A stretch of DNA of 64,000 nt, taken from positions 62,001-126,000 of the forward strand of contig JAITLR010000019.1 in assembly GCA_031277805.1 (NCBI GenBank). Reading direction: 5' to 3'. Source of the DNA: Comamonas sp. (GTDB lineage: Bacteria; Pseudomonadota; Gammaproteobacteria; Burkholderiales; Burkholderiaceae_C). Below the pieces are notes generated by a model. The model made no database searches. It had not been told where the DNA came from and saw nothing but the letters and a program-made list of their open reading frames with translations. Shown here piece after piece: positions 18,828 to 48,107 of the stretch. A program made the translations under genes and the position numbers. The number at the start of each line of letters is the position of its first letter. Position 1 is the stretch's first letter.

Positions 18828-18884
18828 TTTGATAGCTTCTTATGCTTTATGCATAAGCGTTTAAGCCATATTTCATTGAAATCC
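18828..18884 (+). repeat. Dispersed intergenic repeat, copy 4 (degenerate)
   Basis: TTTGATAGCTTCTTATGCTT followed by TATGCATAAGCG and a final ATTTCATTGAAAT keep the ends of the repeat, while the GCGCTTG core has drifted to an AT-rich form. It reaches into the stop region of the next gene. Confidence 0.5.
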
Positions 18885-39928: not shown

Positions 39929-41779
39929 TCAACTCATCACAAAAATGGGCGCCGTGGTGCGAAACGGCAGCCTGCGGCCGGGCGGCAGCAGATAGGCATG
40001 CTCGCGCGGCACGCGCAACTGGTCGCATTCGCCGTCGGTGATGATGAGCATGGGGCCGTCCTTGGGAAAGTCGTCGGCCTGCAGCAACAAGTCCACGCCC
40101 GGCTGCAGCACGGTGCCGCCGCGGCCCTTGAGGGCGATGCGCTGGGCCATGTCGGCGGCGGGCAGATAGCCCAGGTCATAGGCTGCGGCGTCGCAGCAGA
40201 TCAGGCGCACGGCGGGCACGTCCTTGGCCTCGGCATAGCTGGCGATGGCGCCCAGCGCCTTGGCCAGTACATGGCGCTCCATCGATCCCGAGGTGTCCAG
40301 CACCACGCCAAAGGTGCGGCCTTCCAGCCAGCGGCTGTCGGCCTGAATGCGCGGGCGGGGAATATCGGGCGTGGCACTTTGGCGGCGGCTGATGCGGGCA
40401 TAGCTGCGCCGCGTCTCTATGGGCGGAAAGTGGTGGTCAAACCAGCGCGCCAACTCGACCTGCCAGTCAATCGGCGGCTGCAGCAGGGCACGGATTTCCT
40501 CGATCAGCCCCGCAGGCAGCAGGCCACGCGTGCTTTGCTCGTGGCGCAGCAGGCCCTTGCCCAGCTGGGTGCGGCAGAACTCGTCGATATCGGTGTAATC
40601 CCCCGCGTTGCGCTGGCCGCCCACATTGCGCTCCAGCATGTCGCCCTGGCCGCCGGCCAGGGTGCGCAGCTTGCGCATGCGGCGCAGATCGCCCGCGATG
40701 CGGTCGTAGACCTCTTCGGCGCTGAGCCCGCGCAGCTCGGGGTCGTAGAGCAGGCCGATGCCCGGTGGCTGGCCCACGTCCATCTGAATCAGCCAGTCGT
40801 TGATGACAAAGTCGCAGGCCACATTCCACAGAAACGGCTCGCGCCCGCGGCGTCGCGGCAGATGGCGCAGCGCCACATGCAGCACTTCGTGGGCGATGAC
40901 AAAGCGCAGCTCCAGCTCGGATAGGCGCGGGCCGGGGTTGATGTAGATGGTGCGTAGCACCTCGTCGACGGCGGCGACGGCGATCTCCTCGCGCTCGCAG
41001 ATACTGGCGTCCTCAATGATGTCAAAGGCCGCGACCATGCTGCCCAGCAGCGGAAAGCTGTCCATGAACCAGTGGCGCGCGCGGTCCAGCGCGCTGCTGG
41101 CGGGGCGGCTCTGGCCAAACTCGCGGCGCACGCCTGCGGCAATTTCCACAGACTGGGTCACAGACCGGGCCAGACCCGCGGCAAACATTTCGGACCAGCT
41201 GCTGTATTTGCGCCAGTGGGGTTTGGTGGTGGCAGTAGCCGGTTCCGGCCATTGCTGCGGCAGCGCCAGGCTGGGGTGGGCGCCGCCCAGGCCTGGGCCG
41301 GCCAGACTCAGCGCCTGCGCCCAGGCGGGTATGCCTTGTTCGCAGAACTGGCCATACCACTGGGCCTCGTCACGCTGCGGCAGGCCGTCGGGCAGCTCCA
41401 TGCCTTCGGGCGCGCGGCCCAGCTTGATGGTCTGGATAAAGCGGGCCGTGACCACATCGCAGGCCGCGCTCCATTGCGCCCAATGGCTGCGGTCGCGCTG
41501 AAACAGCTCCAGCGCGTAGCTGAGCGTGGCTCGGCCCAGGCAATAGGCCCATTCCTCGGCGCTGGCCATGCGCTTGGGGTGGATGTCGATCTGCCCGGTC
41601 ATGCGCTGGTGGTTGAGCTTGGCCTGCGCCCAACCATGGGCCGGACACTCCGAATGGGCGCTGCGCAGATAGCTCAGGCTGCGGCTGAGTTCGCTGAAGA
41701 TGGGGTGGGCCTGCAGCAAGGCCAGGCCCTGCATATAGGCCAGCGTGGCAGGCGTTTCGCGCGTTGGTGGCTTGGCCAT
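39929..41779 (-). CDS. Zincin-like metallopeptidase/vWA protein with a duplicated, degenerate zincin copy
   Basis: The 616-residue protein combines a zincin module and a C-terminal von Willebrand A domain. The active copy (about 277-345) has HEVLH (297-301), H306 and an NVACD motif (319-323). The vWA domain (about 490-616) has the MIDAS motif DTSGS (495-499). Residues 64-131 repeat the same sequence plan, 'IxIxP...', 'W.AACDVV' and '+LG+.P', but the zinc residues H297, E298 and H301 are replaced by R, A and S. The layout resembles DUF2201-type partners of MoxR ATPases. The MoxR gene is 6 bp upstream on the same strand. The role is probably metal or complex remodelling, not proven. Confidence 0.88.
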   Translation of the reverse strand: MAKPPTRETPATLAYMQGLALLQAHPIFSELSRSLSYLRSAHSECPAHGWAQAKLNHQRMTGQIDIHPKRMASAEEWAYCLGRATLSYALELFQRDRSHWAQWSAACDVVTARFIQTIKLGRAPEGMELPDGLPQRDEAQWYGQFCEQGIPAWAQALSLAGPGLGGAHPSLALPQQWPEPATATTKPHWRKYSSWSEMFAAGLARSVTQSVEIAAGVRREFGQSRPASSALDRARHWFMDSFPLLGSMVAAFDIIEDASICEREEIAVAAVDEVLRTIYINPGPRLSELELRFVIAHEVLHVALRHLPRRRGREPFLWNVACDFVINDWLIQMDVGQPPGIGLLYDPELRGLSAEEVYDRIAGDLRRMRKLRTLAGGQGDMLERNVGGQRNAGDYTDIDEFCRTQLGKGLLRHEQSTRGLLPAGLIEEIRALLQPPIDWQVELARWFDHHFPPIETRRSYARISRRQSATPDIPRPRIQADSRWLEGRTFGVVLDTSGSMERHVLAKALGAIASYAEAKDVPAVRLICCDAAAYDLGYLPAADMAQRIALKGRGGTVLQPGVDLLLQADDFPKDGPMLIITDGECDQLRVPREHAYLLPPGRRLPFRTTAPIFVMS

Positions 41780-41785
41780 CAGGCG

Positions 41786-42853
41786 TCAGGCCTTGGCCGC
41801 TTCGCGCGCTTCGACCAGTCGCGGCAGGTCGCGCACGATTTCCACCATATACCAGGCGGGCAATGTCTGGCCGTCGCTTTCGGCAGTGACGATCTGGGCC
41901 ATTTCCAGGCTGATCTGGGCCAGGTCCTTGAGCATGGCCTTGGAGCGGTGCACGGTCTGCTGCAGCTCGCCGCTGCTTTGTTGCTTGTCGGCAGGCAGGA
42001 TCTTGAGCAGGCGCGCGCGAAAGGCCTGGGCCAGAAAGTACAGCACGTCGCGGTCCTGCGGCGCATGGGGCCAGTTGGCGTCGCCCTTGAAGATGGCGTC
42101 CAGACGGTGACGGTCGTCGGCCAGTTTGTAGAAGGCCTTGAACTGCGCCGCATGTTGGGGCGTGAGGCAGCCGCTGCTCAGGGCTTCGAGCGTGTGCAGA
42201 TTCAGATCTTCGCCATAGGACTGCAAGGCGTCGCTGAGCATATGCCAGGAGCGCGGCGTGGAAAACGCCTCCTCATGCTTGGGCGGCTGGCTCCATAGAT
42301 GGTCGGGGCGCTGGGCCAGATATTCGAGCACCAGCGTGTGCAACTGGGCCTGCTGCGCCCATTGCAGCCACTCGCTGGCGCTGACCTTGAGCTGCACATG
42401 AATCATGCGGTTGATCAGCGCCGAGGACATGGTGCGCACAATCGCCGAGTCCTGAGCGCGGTTGCCAGCGGCAATCACGATGGAGCTCTCGGGCATCACA
42501 TACTCGCCCACGCGGCGTTCCAGAATCAGGCTGTAGAAGGCTTTCTGCACATCCTGGCTGCAGGCGTTGAGCTCGTCCAGGAACAGGCAATAGGGTTGCT
42601 CGCGCGCAATCATGGCGGGCGGGCAGAAGCGGGTCACGCCGTCGCTGATCTGGGGCACGCCCAGCAAATCCTCGGGCGCGAGCTGGCTGCCCAGCAGGGA
42701 GACGCAATCGAGCCCCACGCTTTGCGCAAAGCTCTGCACCAGCGCCGATTTGCCGATGCCCGGCGGCCCCCAGATGAATACGGGGCGCACGGTGGCGACA
42801 TTGAGAAGAAATTCGCTCAGTTGCGAGGGAGTGAGAGCCAGACTGGTTTGCAT
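41786..42853 (-). CDS. MoxR-type AAA+ ATPase
   Basis: This 355-residue ATPase has Walker A GPPGIGKS (29-36) and Walker B LFLDELN (93-99), with 'GNRAQDS' as sensor 1. It lies immediately upstream of the vWA-metallopeptidase gene, so the two form a MoxR-vWA module. Such pairs assemble or activate protein complexes or metal centres. The C-terminal 130 residues are helical, with no further known domain. It is preceded by a dispersed repeat that separates it from the VOC gene. Confidence 0.92.
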   Translation of the reverse strand: MQTSLALTPSQLSEFLLNVATVRPVFIWGPPGIGKSALVQSFAQSVGLDCVSLLGSQLAPEDLLGVPQISDGVTRFCPPAMIAREQPYCLFLDELNACSQDVQKAFYSLILERRVGEYVMPESSIVIAAGNRAQDSAIVRTMSSALINRMIHVQLKVSASEWLQWAQQAQLHTLVLEYLAQRPDHLWSQPPKHEEAFSTPRSWHMLSDALQSYGEDLNLHTLEALSSGCLTPQHAAQFKAFYKLADDRHRLDAIFKGDANWPHAPQDRDVLYFLAQAFRARLLKILPADKQQSSGELQQTVHRSKAMLKDLAQISLEMAQIVTAESDGQTLPAWYMVEIVRDLPRLVEAREAAKA

Positions 42854-42912
42854 GCAACTGGCAGTCTAAATCAGGCGCGCGGCACAGCGGATGCAATAGC
42901 GTTGAAAACTAC

Positions 42913-42968
42913 TGAATTGATAGCTTCCAGCGCTTGATGCAATGGCGCTAGAGCCATATTTCTTCAAT
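42913..42968 (+). repeat. Dispersed intergenic repeat, copy 10
   Basis: GAATTGATAGCTTCCAGCGC is followed by TTGATGCAATGGCGCTAG and CCATATTTCTTCAA. The two GCGCT half-sites can pair. It sits between VOC gene and MoxR gene. Confidence 0.75.
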
Positions 42969-43609
42969 TATTCGTAGTCAAACTCGGCTTGGTAATCGGC
43001 CGGATTGATGCCTTCGGCGCGCAGCGGCTCGACCAGGCGAAAGCGCGTGATCTTGGCCGATGCGGTGATATAGCCCTTGATGACCAGCTCGCGCGTGACC
43101 GGGCTTTGTGCTTCCTGGGCCAGCTGCTCGATCACCCGCGTGGTCTTGCGCCGTGCCAGCATGCGAAACAGCGCCGGTACATGGGCCAGCAGGCGCTTGA
43201 GCAGGTCTTCGGCTTCGGCCAGCCATTGGCCCTGCTTGGGCAACTCGGGCACAAAGCCCCATTCATCCTCGGTCAGCGCGCGCCACAGGGTGATGGCGTG
43301 GCCGTCCGCATCGGTGACGCAGGCCATTTCTTCAAGCTGAGGAGTTTTTACGGGGGCATAGCGCGATGCCATGCCAGCAGCCAGCAATGCTTGATAGGAC
43401 TGTGGCACATCACCAACCTGCAGGCGCAGTGCCACGGGGGCTTCAATTGCCCGGACCTGCAGCAGCCGTAGGGTGGCGCTGCCGGTATCGATATCCACAA
43501 AGCCATCACCACGCTGCACTGCGGCAAAACCCATGACATCACACCAGAGCGCGGAGCTGCGCTCCAGTTGGGTCACGGGTACGACAAGATGGCTGATTCC
43601 AAAAAACAT
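42968..43609 (-). CDS. VOC (glyoxalase-fold) protein fused to a PCP_red domain
   Basis: The 213-residue protein has two parts. Residues 3-111 form a VOC module (MFFGISHLVVPVTQLERSSA, with 'MACVTDADGHAITLW'). Residues 127-185 resemble the PCP_red domain, known as the C-terminal part of protochlorophyllide reductase subunit ChlB/BchB: 'WLAEAEDLLKRLLAHVP' and 'RRKTTRVIEQLAQEA'. The fusion is unusual. The start at 43609 has no strong ribosome-binding site; a GTG at 43714 would read through a LexA box and is rejected. Two LexA-type boxes lie upstream, predicting induction by DNA damage. Confidence 0.78.
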   Translation of the reverse strand: MFFGISHLVVPVTQLERSSALWCDVMGFAAVQRGDGFVDIDTGSATLRLLQVRAIEAPVALRLQVGDVPQSYQALLAAGMASRYAPVKTPQLEEMACVTDADGHAITLWRALTEDEWGFVPELPKQGQWLAEAEDLLKRLLAHVPALFRMLARRKTTRVIEQLAQEAQSPVTRELVIKGYITASAKITRFRLVEPLRAEGINPADYQAEFDYE

Positions 43610-43676
43610 AGCAGACTTCGCGGGGCTGGAAAGGGCTGGAATGATAAAGCGCGACAGTTTTCGAAGATAAATAGTC

Positions 43677-43739
43677 TTAACTGTATATTTGTACAGTAAA
43701 TGCTGTTTGAGCACCTGGGAGGTATGTTTTGGGCATCAT
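43677..43739 (-). CDS. Candidate 20-residue ORF between two LexA boxes
   Basis: Reading MMPKTYLPGAQTAFTVQIYS, this short ORF has a good ribosome-binding site (GGAGG, 8 bases upstream of the first ATG). It lies 120 bp downstream of LexA box 2 and its stop overlaps LexA box 1. It is not strongly hydrophobic and matches no known toxin. It could be an SOS-controlled leader peptide or a chance reading. Confidence 0.35.
   Translation of the reverse strand: MMPKTYLPGAQTAFTVQIYS
43681..43696. promoter_or_regulatory. LexA (SOS) box 1
   Basis: CTGTATATTTGTACAG matches the LexA consensus CTGT-N8-ACAG with an AT-rich spacer and flanks AA/TA as in E. coli. It lies 71 bp upstream of the VOC-PCP_red start on the reverse strand. 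A TGTACA...TATTTA pair overlapping it, 16 bp apart, may be the promoter. Confidence 0.7.
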
Positions 43740-43758
43740 CAGAGGTGCCTCCAGAATG

Positions 43759-43803
43759 AAAATCAATAGCTGAGATCGCTTTGCCGTAAAGCGCTATGGC
43801 TTG
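43759..43803 (+). repeat. Dispersed intergenic repeat, degenerate copy 11
   Basis: AAAATCAATAGCTGAGATCG, then CTTTGCCGTAAAGCGCTATG. It keeps the AATAGCT start and one GCGCT half, and lies between the two LexA boxes. Confidence 0.4.
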
Positions 43804-43859
43804 TTTTTCATGAAATTCCTGCCCGAGACAGTGCACTATGGCCTGAATTCTGGAAACAG

Positions 43860-43875
43860 CTGTATTTATATACAG
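43860..43875. promoter_or_regulatory. LexA (SOS) box 2
   Basis: CTGTATTTATATACAG, with AC and AGC flanks, is another consensus CTGT-N8-ACAG site. Its centre is 179 bp from that of box 1, close to 17 DNA turns. It is 56 bp past the LysR stop, so any gene it controls must lie on the side of the VOC gene. Confidence 0.7.
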
Positions 43876-43931
43876 TTTTCGGGTGAGGGAAGACTTCAAA
43901 CCGGGCACTGCTGCCAAAGCGATCTGCGAAC

Positions 43932-44852
43932 TCAGGCGTTGATCTGCGCCTGGAATGCCTGCATGCCTTGCACGCAGTGCTGCAGAAAGCGGTTGGCGGC
44001 AGGCGACAGGTGGCGTCCCGTGCGGGTGATGAGCTGCATCTGCGCACCCTCAAAAGCCGGGTTGCTGACGGGAATGGCCTTGACCCGGCCCTGGGCCAGC
44101 TCAGCCACGACGGCGCAGCGGGGCAGCAGGGTTACCCCCTGGCCGGTGCTGACAAAGCTGATGAGCACACTGATGAGATTGCTGGTCAGTGCCGGTGAAA
44201 GCCGAATCCGGTCCGCTTGCTCCGCCGCCTCCACCAACTGGCGTATGCCGTAGACGCCTTGCAGCAGGGCAATGGGCCACTGCGTCAGCTCTTGCAGTGA
44301 GGTCTGGGCCGCGTTCGCCAGCGGGTGCAGTGGGTGAATGATGGCCTGCATGGGCTGGCTGGCCGATCCGCGTGCGGTGATATGGCTATCGGCAGGCGGG
44401 TAGTAGACGAGGCCGATTTCTGCCTCGTCCTCGCGCACGCGGCGCATGATTTCATTGGTGCCGTAGATTTCCAGCGCAATCGACACGCCAGGGTGCTGCT
44501 GGCGGAACTGGCGGATGGGCCCGTCGATCAGTTCCTGGGCAAAGCCTTCGCCGCTGACCACGCTGATGCTGCCGCTGTGCAGGCCGCGCAGGGCATCCAT
44601 CTTGGCGAGCATGTCATGGCGGTGCGCGATATGTTGGCGGTAGTAATCCAGGACGAGCTGGCCGGCCTGGGTCGGAACCACACCGCTGCGGTGGCGCTCC
44701 AGCAGGGCTACTCCCAGAGATTCCTCCAGCAAGGTGATCTGGCGGCTGACGGCCGAGGGCACGATGCCCAGCTTTTCTGCGGCTGCCCGCACCGAGCCGC
44801 AGCTAACGGCTTCATATAGATAGTGAGCGCGGGAGTCCTGGTAGGCCGACAT
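43932..44852 (-). CDS. LysR-family transcriptional regulator
   Basis: The 306-residue protein has a LysR HTH (RAAAEKLGIVPSAVSRQITL) and the effector-binding domain ('QELIDGPIRQFRQQHPGVSI'). It is divergent from the DUF3100 transporter and M20 peptidase genes, with about 200 bp between starts, and probably regulates them. The start at 44852 gives MSAYQDSRAHYLYEAVSCGS, suitable for the family. The LexA box 2 lies beyond its stop and is not in its promoter. Confidence 0.93.
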   Translation of the reverse strand: MSAYQDSRAHYLYEAVSCGSVRAAAEKLGIVPSAVSRQITLLEESLGVALLERHRSGVVPTQAGQLVLDYYRQHIAHRHDMLAKMDALRGLHSGSISVVSGEGFAQELIDGPIRQFRQQHPGVSIALEIYGTNEIMRRVREDEAEIGLVYYPPADSHITARGSASQPMQAIIHPLHPLANAAQTSLQELTQWPIALLQGVYGIRQLVEAAEQADRIRLSPALTSNLISVLISFVSTGQGVTLLPRCAVVAELAQGRVKAIPVSNPAFEGAQMQLITRTGRHLSPAANRFLQHCVQGMQAFQAQINA

Positions 44853-45048
44853 GGATAGATATGTTCAAGCAAGAGCGCGATTTTGTCTGCAGAGTGTGCA
44901 CTTTTTTAGAACAGAAAACATCAAGTCATGAAATAAACGCATTGATATATTCGTCGGCAGTATCAGGTGTAAGGCTGAGGCCCTTCCCAGCTCTTTTGCA
45001 TCTGAGGAGTGAATGCTTTCCTGCGGCGCACCGCGGAGGCGAAAAAGG

Positions 45049-46407
45049 ATGACCATGAGTACAGAGATGCGGCCCGCTACACCGGGGCTGGAGATGCGCA
45101 GCATGCTGCAGATTTTTGCGCTGGCGCTGGTGATTTCGGCCTTGTCCGAATGGCTGGGCCCGTTGCCCATCGAGCTCGGTGTGGGCAAGGTGGTACTGCT
45201 GCCCATGATCTGGGCGCTGCTTATCGGTCTGGTACTGGGCCTGTGCGCCAAGCGCATGCCCGCGCCGCTCAAGCTCAGCCTGCACAGTCAGCATCTGGCC
45301 GCAGCCGTTCTGTCGTTCGCCCTGTTCCTCTTCATTGCCAAGCTGGGCCTGCTGGTGGGCGGCTCGTTGCCGCAACTGGCCGAGGTAGGCGGTGGCCTGG
45401 CATTGCAGGAGCTGGGCAATCTGGTGGGCTGTGTGGCACTGGGCATGCCGGTGGCGCTGCTGCTGGGCATCAAGCGCGAGGCCATTGGCGCGACTTTCTC
45501 CATTGGACGCGAGCCGGGCCTGGCCATCATTGGCGAGCGTTTCGGCATGGATTCGCCCGAAGGCCGCGGTGTGCTGGCCGAATACATCACCGGCACGCTG
45601 GTGGGCGCGATCTTTATTTCGCTGCTGGCCGGCTTTATCTCCAGCCTCAACATCTTTCACCCGCTGGCGCTGGGCCTGGGTGCGGGCGTGGGCTCGGGCT
45701 CGATGACGGCGGCTGCCGTGGGCGCGATTGCAGCCCAGCATCCCGAGATGGCCGACAAGATCGCCACTTTTGCCGCCGCGGCCAACCTGATTGCGTTGAC
45801 CGTGGGTACCTATCTGACGTTGTTTGTCTCGTTGCCCCTGGCCGTGCGCGCCTATCGCTTTCTGGAGCCCATTCTGGGACGCCACAGCAAGGCCGTGGCT
45901 TCCGTGCAAACCGACAAGACTGCCGATGCAGCCAAGGCCGAGGCTGAGGAGGTCGTGCATCCTCCCGTGCTGAGCCTGCCCATGCGTTTGCTGTGCTGGG
46001 TCTGGGTAGGTCTGATGGTGCTGATCGGCAACCGCATTGGCCACGGCGTGCCCATGCTGGAGGCGTTGCCAGGCGTGCTGCTGATCATTCTGGCCGTGCT
46101 GATTGGCGATCTGATCTATATGGCCACGCGCCGCATGCTGCCGGCCGTGTGCTGGATTTCCTTCATCGCCATGGCCATGACCTTTCCGTATACGCCTTAT
46201 GCCGCCGAAGTGGCTGCGTTGACGGGCAAGGTCAACTTCCTGGCCATGATCACGCCCATGCTGACCTTTGCCGGCCTGTCGCTGGCCAAGGACATCCCCG
46301 CTTTCCGCCGCCTGGGCTGGCGCATCGTCGTGGTGTCGTTGATGGCCAATGCCGGCGTGTTTCTGGCGGCGACCATGATTTCGCAGACTTTCGTTCACAC
46401 CCTTTGA
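45049..46407 (+). CDS. DUF3100 membrane protein
   Basis: The protein has about 452 residues and 11 or 12 membrane helices with glycine-rich loops ('PLALGLGAGVGSGSMTAAAVG'). DUF3100 proteins are predicted transporters often found next to an M20 amidohydrolase, as here (15-bp gap). A plausible role is uptake of an N-acyl amino acid or similar amide that the downstream enzyme cleaves. Two ATG starts (45049 and 45055) are possible; AAAAAGG precedes the second at six bases. The stop is 15 bp before the M20 gene. Confidence 0.85.
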   Translation: MTMSTEMRPATPGLEMRSMLQIFALALVISALSEWLGPLPIELGVGKVVLLPMIWALLIGLVLGLCAKRMPAPLKLSLHSQHLAAAVLSFALFLFIAKLGLLVGGSLPQLAEVGGGLALQELGNLVGCVALGMPVALLLGIKREAIGATFSIGREPGLAIIGERFGMDSPEGRGVLAEYITGTLVGAIFISLLAGFISSLNIFHPLALGLGAGVGSGSMTAAAVGAIAAQHPEMADKIATFAAAANLIALTVGTYLTLFVSLPLAVRAYRFLEPILGRHSKAVASVQTDKTADAAKAEAEEVVHPPVLSLPMRLLCWVWVGLMVLIGNRIGHGVPMLEALPGVLLIILAVLIGDLIYMATRRMLPAVCWISFIAMAMTFPYTPYAAEVAALTGKVNFLAMITPMLTFAGLSLAKDIPAFRRLGWRIVVVSLMANAGVFLAATMISQTFVHTL

Positions 46408-47598: not shown

Positions 47599-47621
47599 AG
47601 CTTCAGGCGACAGCTTTGACG

Positions 47622-47651
47622 AAAAATGCCGGGTTCATGCCCGGCATTTTT
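47622..47651 (+). terminator. Bidirectional rho-independent terminator
   Basis: AAAAATGCCGGG pairs with CCCGGCATTTTT over a 6-nt loop, so a T run exists on both strands. It ends the DUF3100-M20 operon. Confidence 0.92.
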
Positions 47652-48107
47652 CTTGCGCCCGATATTTTGAAACTCACTTCTTGATAGCTGAAAACGCAGG
47701 TCTGGTGTTTGTTTTCGTGAATTTTGAAGTGGATTGTGTTTTGACCCAGGCGACTGCTGATTGGTCAGATTTCTTTCGCTTTGAATCCCGGTGCTTTCAA
47801 TCTGCCAGACTTCTGCCAGTGTTCGGCGGAGATGGGAAGGCTCCCAGTTCTATGATGTAAACAGCGCTTCCAGCGGTGAATCTGCTTGTCGCGTGCATGG
47901 GGGCGGCCATGACAACAGCGTGATACATGAGCCGACCACCGATCGCAGGTGTTGCACCGGGTATTCAGATGCCGACGCTCAATGCGCAGATTGCGCTGTC
48001 GGCTGGCCCGCTTTCTTGTGGCGCATGCCACTGCCGCAACACAGCCTGCTGCAAGCTGGGCCATCGCTTTGCGCTTTCGCCCGGCATTGAGACAGGAAAG
48101 GGCGTCG
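47652..48107. other. Intergenic stretch before the antiporter gene
   Basis: About 450 bp with no gene supported. It holds the dispersed repeat at 47677-47729. TATGAT (47854-47859) could be a -10 element of the antiporter promoter, but no good -35 was found. AGGAAAGG precedes the antiporter start. Confidence 0.4.
47677..47729 (+). repeat. Dispersed intergenic repeat, copy 12
   Basis: ACTTCTTGATAGCTGAAAAC, then GCAGGTCTGGTGTTTG and GTGAATTTTGAAG. The end motifs are kept but the GCGCTTG core is degraded. Confidence 0.5.

Follow-up and report, generated by a model that had tools for sequence, protein, structure and literature searches.

In beta- and gammaproteobacteria the LexA (SOS) regulon works through operators of the form CTGT-N8-ACAG, and SOS regulation of splB has been predicted in the betaproteobacteria (both according to PMC3323433). 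An SOS-regulated COG1573-COG4277 operon (UDG/COG4277 base-excision repair) has also been published (PMC8565304). A gene of the glyoxalase/bleomycin-resistance fold, Rv0887c in the SigG regulon of M. tuberculosis, has been studied in the DNA-damage response; that work (PMC3776920) places it under a sigma factor, not LexA, and its product shares a domain class with the protein described below.

We analysed a window of 64,000 nucleotides from a Comamonas genome (G000, 86% complete), in which two palindromic boxes precede a gene for a VOC-DUF2621 protein (Table 1). The locus resembles the LexA regulon of PMC3323433 in its operator motif, and lexA, imuA, FAN1-like and PA0069-family radical SAM genes are boxed in G000. 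It differs in that its operators stand 179 bp apart; otherwise a single operator is present or, at lexA, a pair with a distance of 19 bp. We estimate a probability of about 70% that the pair are chromosomal LexA operators controlling transcription of the VOC-DUF2621 gene, and the best reading of the sequence comparisons is that this gene is a new candidate member of the known LexA regulon in one subclade. Our search of the open-access literature found neither this gene as a member of the LexA regulon nor any paper on DUF2621. If the proposal is true, some Comamonas deploy a VOC-fold protein in their SOS response, which would suggest that tolerance of DNA damage involves the handling of small molecules; as a principle of regulation this would be nothing unusual.

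Table 1. Features of the window discussed in the text
Feature	Position	Strand	Remarks
DUF2201 (metallopeptidase-like/VWA-like) gene	39929..41779	-	further downstream of VOC
MoxR-like AAA gene	41786..42853	-	downstream of VOC
VOC-DUF2621 (PCP_red-like) gene, 213 aa	42968..43609	-	proposed target
Likely VOC -10, TATCAT	43641..43646	-	by eye; -37 to -32
Proximal LexA box, CTGTATATTTGTACAG	43681..43696	.	72-87 bases upstream of VOC start
Distal LexA box, CTGTATTTATATACAG	43860..43875	.	251-266 bases upstream of VOC start
LysR-type regulator gene	43932..44852	-	upstream; ends before boxes
M20-CPA interval	47599..47948	.	rSAM place in G003, G016, G035 and G001; rSAM absent here

Two LexA-like boxes in the window

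Both CTGT-N8-ACAG sequences were found where the preliminary description had placed them, with the centre-to-centre distance of 179 bp that it reported. The motif occurs four times in the window against 0.88 expected, a number reached in none of 100 shuffles. The remaining two sites, at 18884 and 20666, have spacers that are half G+C and were not among the top matches listed for the window with either LexA matrix, so that the claim that nothing similar lies elsewhere in the window holds for strong sites but not for the motif as such.

LexA was matched in 51 of 53 Comamonas genomes (in G000 on contig C26; TIGR00498, 221.8 bits vs 110.95), and boxes were taken from the best 30 lexA loci. At 29 of these 30 the boxes form a pair with a distance of 19 bp, and many have a single mismatch in the core; the other locus (L154) yielded no boxes because its gene did not begin where expected, and it was excluded from the matrix. 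The resulting matrix of 23 distinct boxes, all from Comamonas lexA promoters (training range 16.1-28.6 bits), ranked the window boxes first and second at 27.6 bits each, inside the training range, with the next match at 9.7. A wider matrix was made from 36 distinct boxes of lexA, imuA, FAN1-like, PA0069-like and radical SAM genes, the VOC boxes being excluded (training scores 15.9-33.0 bits, median 24.2). It gave the pair 29.7 and 28.7 bits, and 10.3 to the next window match; a random control reached at most 16.1 bits across 2,559,240 positions, and none of 599,430 positions in random sequence of intergenic composition scored as high as the window boxes. Both boxes fit the genus's own LexA motif. 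In the whole genome G000, CTGT-N8-ACAG was found 48 times, compared with 24 in a reversed control, and the stricter CTGTN-W7-ACAG five times, compared with none; these five include the distal box, whereas the proximal box falls outside that pattern. Both boxes are genuine and far above chance.

Further strong sites in G000 lie at imuA (NF033429), at a FAN1/VRR-NUC nuclease gene and at a PA0069-family radical SAM gene, which we infer to correspond to splB. The 16-mer at the last of these is identical to the distal box.

The boxes are separated by 163 bp. The 20-codon ORF noted there earlier does exist, but G070 and G003, two relatives that carry the pair, have not kept it, nor have they kept a longer open frame; we therefore rejected the idea that a small ORF is conserved in this interval, and the suggested small new unit is not supported. 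The supposed degraded repeat came down to weak matches elsewhere in the window. No Rfam RNA matched up to E = 1 in 42500-45500. The distance of 179 bp corresponds to 17.05 helical turns, across which LexA could possibly bind on the same face of the DNA; spacings of 178, 168, 129 and 124 bp, seen at the radical SAM genes described below, correspond to 16.95, 16.0, 12.29 and 11.81 turns, and the independent spacings are too few for any conclusion on helical phasing.

Conservation of the pair and the presumed VOC promoter

The VOC gene is present in 17 of 53 Comamonas genomes, in 16 of them at full length (the partial match of 50 aa in G022 lies outside these 16). The box pair precedes it at three of the 16 full-length loci, G000, G070 and G003, each time with the spacing of 179 bp, and at one further locus (G002) a single box is shared by VOC and a divergent gene. 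No perfect box was found within 600 bp upstream of VOC at the other 12 full-length loci, G065 included, nor any box within 700 bp at 10 VOC loci of other genera (among them Thiobacillus, Curvibacter, Corticibacter and Lampropedia); we count this against control by LexA. Sites with one mismatch at -24 in G020 and G014 (9.2 bits and below 8) were not scored as boxes.

When G000 is compared with G070, 31 of 32 positions in the boxes are identical, against 189 of 296 (64%) in the remaining LysR-VOC interval (Fisher p = 4e-5, a guide only, as neighbouring bases are not independent). The presumed -10 region is well kept in this comparison too, as is a further stretch that surrounds an inverted repeat lying between the two boxes. 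The distance from box to ATG differs by 32 bp in G003, yet the spacing of the pair is identical. In the VOC tree G000, G070, G065 and G003 form one clade (96/93), and in G065 about 1.1 kb separates LysR from VOC, replacing the box-bearing interval; one gain of the pair followed by loss in G065 is therefore a simple history. The preliminary description had counted it against its proposal if no close relative with the gene also had the boxes: the pair is present in G070 and G003, but the equally close G065 lacks it. Retention in two relatives suggests that the VOC gene has been added to an ordinary SOS response.

As had been proposed, VOC is the nearest gene that the boxes can serve, and it is the sole gene that starts downstream of the pair in the interval. 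The presumed -10 sequence was picked by eye, and the same or a similar sequence stands at a comparable place in other VOC upstream regions, again by eye; a consensus promoter scan did not return it. The centre of the proximal box is about 45 bp upstream of this -10 in G000 and G070, and 56 bp upstream in G003. The box thus lies upstream of the presumed -10/-35 without overlapping it, which also counts against the proposed control. LexA dimers would bind both boxes and keep the VOC promoter down, with LexA at the proximal box perhaps hindering polymerase, alone or together with the distal box; upon DNA damage, activated RecA would promote self-cleavage of LexA, and VOC would be expressed. LexA occupancy, promoter position, repression and induction are what we infer here, as is the role of the protein. 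The minus strand of 42800-44100 showed no terminator-like site, so that transcripts might read through from VOC into MoxR and possibly on into DUF2201. The idea of read-through is weakened by G003, where two other open frames separate VOC from MoxR (L097:9657-11348). These two frames give the impression of a hipB-hipA pair.

The VOC-DUF2621 protein

The gene had been described as a VOC-PCP_red fusion. The VOC domain is supported (Pfam Glyoxalase PF00903, 29.5 bits, cut-off 20.6), but for the second part the window protein stays below the cut-off of PCP_red (PF08369; 15.8 bits, cut-off 32.5) and exceeds that of DUF2621 (42.7 bits, cut-off 27.7). PCP_red matches all 25 aligned members at E <= 1, with a best value of 3.8e-5, and the protein is accordingly better named VOC-DUF2621, PCP_red-like.

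A predicted model (pLDDT 81.5, pTM 0.55; weak around residues 111-160) gave 331 structure matches at E <= 0.001 and fits many glyoxalase-fold structures, including FosA and mitomycin- and bleomycin-binding proteins; these had similar scores, and the match therefore does not pick a ligand. A sequence search of solved structures gave none at E 0.001 (best 0.029). His7, invariant among the 25 members, lines up with His7 of FosA; it is apparently the only one of the FosA and glyoxalase I metal ligands to be kept in the window protein. Our guess from the model is that the protein may bind a small toxic compound.

Proteins 72-78% identical to it are found in Thiobacillus-type genomes (L051, L056, L058, L061), and a near full-length match occurs in three of 299 genomes of a family sample. 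Horizontal transfer of the gene is possible. A plasmid or viral carrier was considered and dropped, no relative being found in IMG/VR or PLSDB.

The radical SAM operon, alternative explanations and further sites

The neighbourhood was compared by tblastn across the regions fetched from 19 relatives. A radical SAM gene (rSAM; TIGR03916, 547.8 bits vs 343.5), of the family that we take to be COG4277, is present in 26 of 53 genus genomes and lies 0.2-4.2 kb from VOC in all 10 genomes that have both. A single LexA box is found just upstream of rSAM in G003, G002, G016 and G035, and also in G001, G008 and G069, which are without VOC. Spaced pairs occur at rSAM in G020 (178 bp), G018 (168 bp), G014, G007 and G032 (129 bp each) and G068 (124 bp). 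The arrangements relative to VOC vary: in G002 rSAM is directly divergent from VOC with its single box between them; in G003 rSAM, followed by a DUF4130 gene, has its own box, and the VOC pair is separate, 3.9 kb away; G016 and G035 have a box at rSAM and none at VOC; the G021 region has neither rSAM nor a strong box; and G000 and G070 lack rSAM but retain the VOC pair. For the M20-CPA interval of the window, no LexA site was listed among the top wider-matrix matches. The likeness to the UDG/COG4277 operon of PMC8565304 consists in a boxed TIGR03916 gene beside VOC in relatives; the difference is that this gene is absent from the window and that G003 has one box for it and a distinct pair for VOC.

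In G065 and G073 a strong box stands just upstream of a DUF3100 permease-like gene (L109:5936-5951 and L115:4153-4168) within homologous flanks, and VOC has no box in either; conversely, DUF3100 is without a strong box in G000, G070 and G003, where VOC has its pair. LexA boxes are thus placed at three alternative promoters of one neighbourhood. We suggest, quite tentatively, that the neighbourhood might be a hotspot of SOS rewiring, with boxes at rSAM-DUF4130, DUF3100-M20 or VOC depending on the species, where VOC, perhaps a binder of a DNA-damaging compound, would have come under LexA in the lineage that later lost rSAM, and where the pair might form a loop. Gains and losses of boxes among such close relatives make the locus useful for studies of regulon rewiring.

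These comparisons bear on the suggestion that the boxes are a scar of a lost SOS operon. The loss of an imuA-imuB-dnaE2 cassette at this place is not supported: imuA, preceded by a box of its own, is found on the same contig at a distance of about 82 kb (C21:23337), and the comparison of the 19 regions, run with queries for other genes than imu, revealed no such cassette here. The loss of an rSAM_link_UDG and DUF4130 operon fits better, since both genes occur nearby in relatives and are absent here, but G003 keeps the operon and its box in addition to the VOC pair. We therefore rejected the pair as a mere rSAM leftover. The broader notion that the boxes remain from such an operon once beside VOC, and control nothing important now, appears improbable to us: the proximity of boxed rSAM genes to VOC, their absence from G000 and G070, the shared box of G002 and the spaced pairs at rSAM all speak for it, whereas the coexistence of both arrangements in G003, the survival of the pair in G000 and G070 despite the absence of rSAM and an identity of 64% in the remaining interval, and the place of rSAM in cassette-bearing relatives, in M20-CPA and not between LysR and VOC, speak against it. 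Slightly less probable still is that the distal box, or both, drive SOS transcription of something other than VOC, such as a small RNA, a small protein encoded between the boxes or an antisense RNA into LysR. The boxes are symmetric, and the 163 bp between them, the 20-codon ORF and the longer frame would leave room for this; G070 and G003 have kept neither of these frames, however, Rfam gave no match, and the scan found no promoter-like site between the boxes. That the palindromes are operators of a regulator other than LexA we regard as very unlikely. AT-rich palindromes are common operators, and G000 contains a further weak N-terminal LexA match (C5:45203-45394, E = 3.7e-4), but the window boxes fit those of lexA promoters and one recurs letter for letter at the PA0069-family gene.

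Control of VOC-DUF2621 by LexA is instead favoured by the matrix scores with their random controls, the paired boxes at lexA itself, the identical spacing in G000, G070 and G003 despite the shifted ATG, the identity of the boxes against that of their surroundings, the clade of the pair-bearing genomes with G065, the shared distal 16-mer and the position of VOC as the only gene starting downstream. On this sequence evidence the boxes are very probably LexA sites that serve VOC in one subclade.

Other LexA-like sites were noted in G000. The FAN1/VRR-NUC gene (L026:1521-3014; C21:45641) is directly behind its strong box of 28.5 bits, whose 16-mer is also present in G070, G065 and G003. At L030:1501-1534 (C21:214888), two LexA-like boxes of 23.2 and 17.7 bits lie 18 bp apart in a lexA-type arrangement, near two open frames for which Pfam gave no match. 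LexA-like boxes also occur near an IS transposase (L035; C30:93806) and near genes for an SLT transglycosylase and a DUF748 protein (L022; C8:129400).
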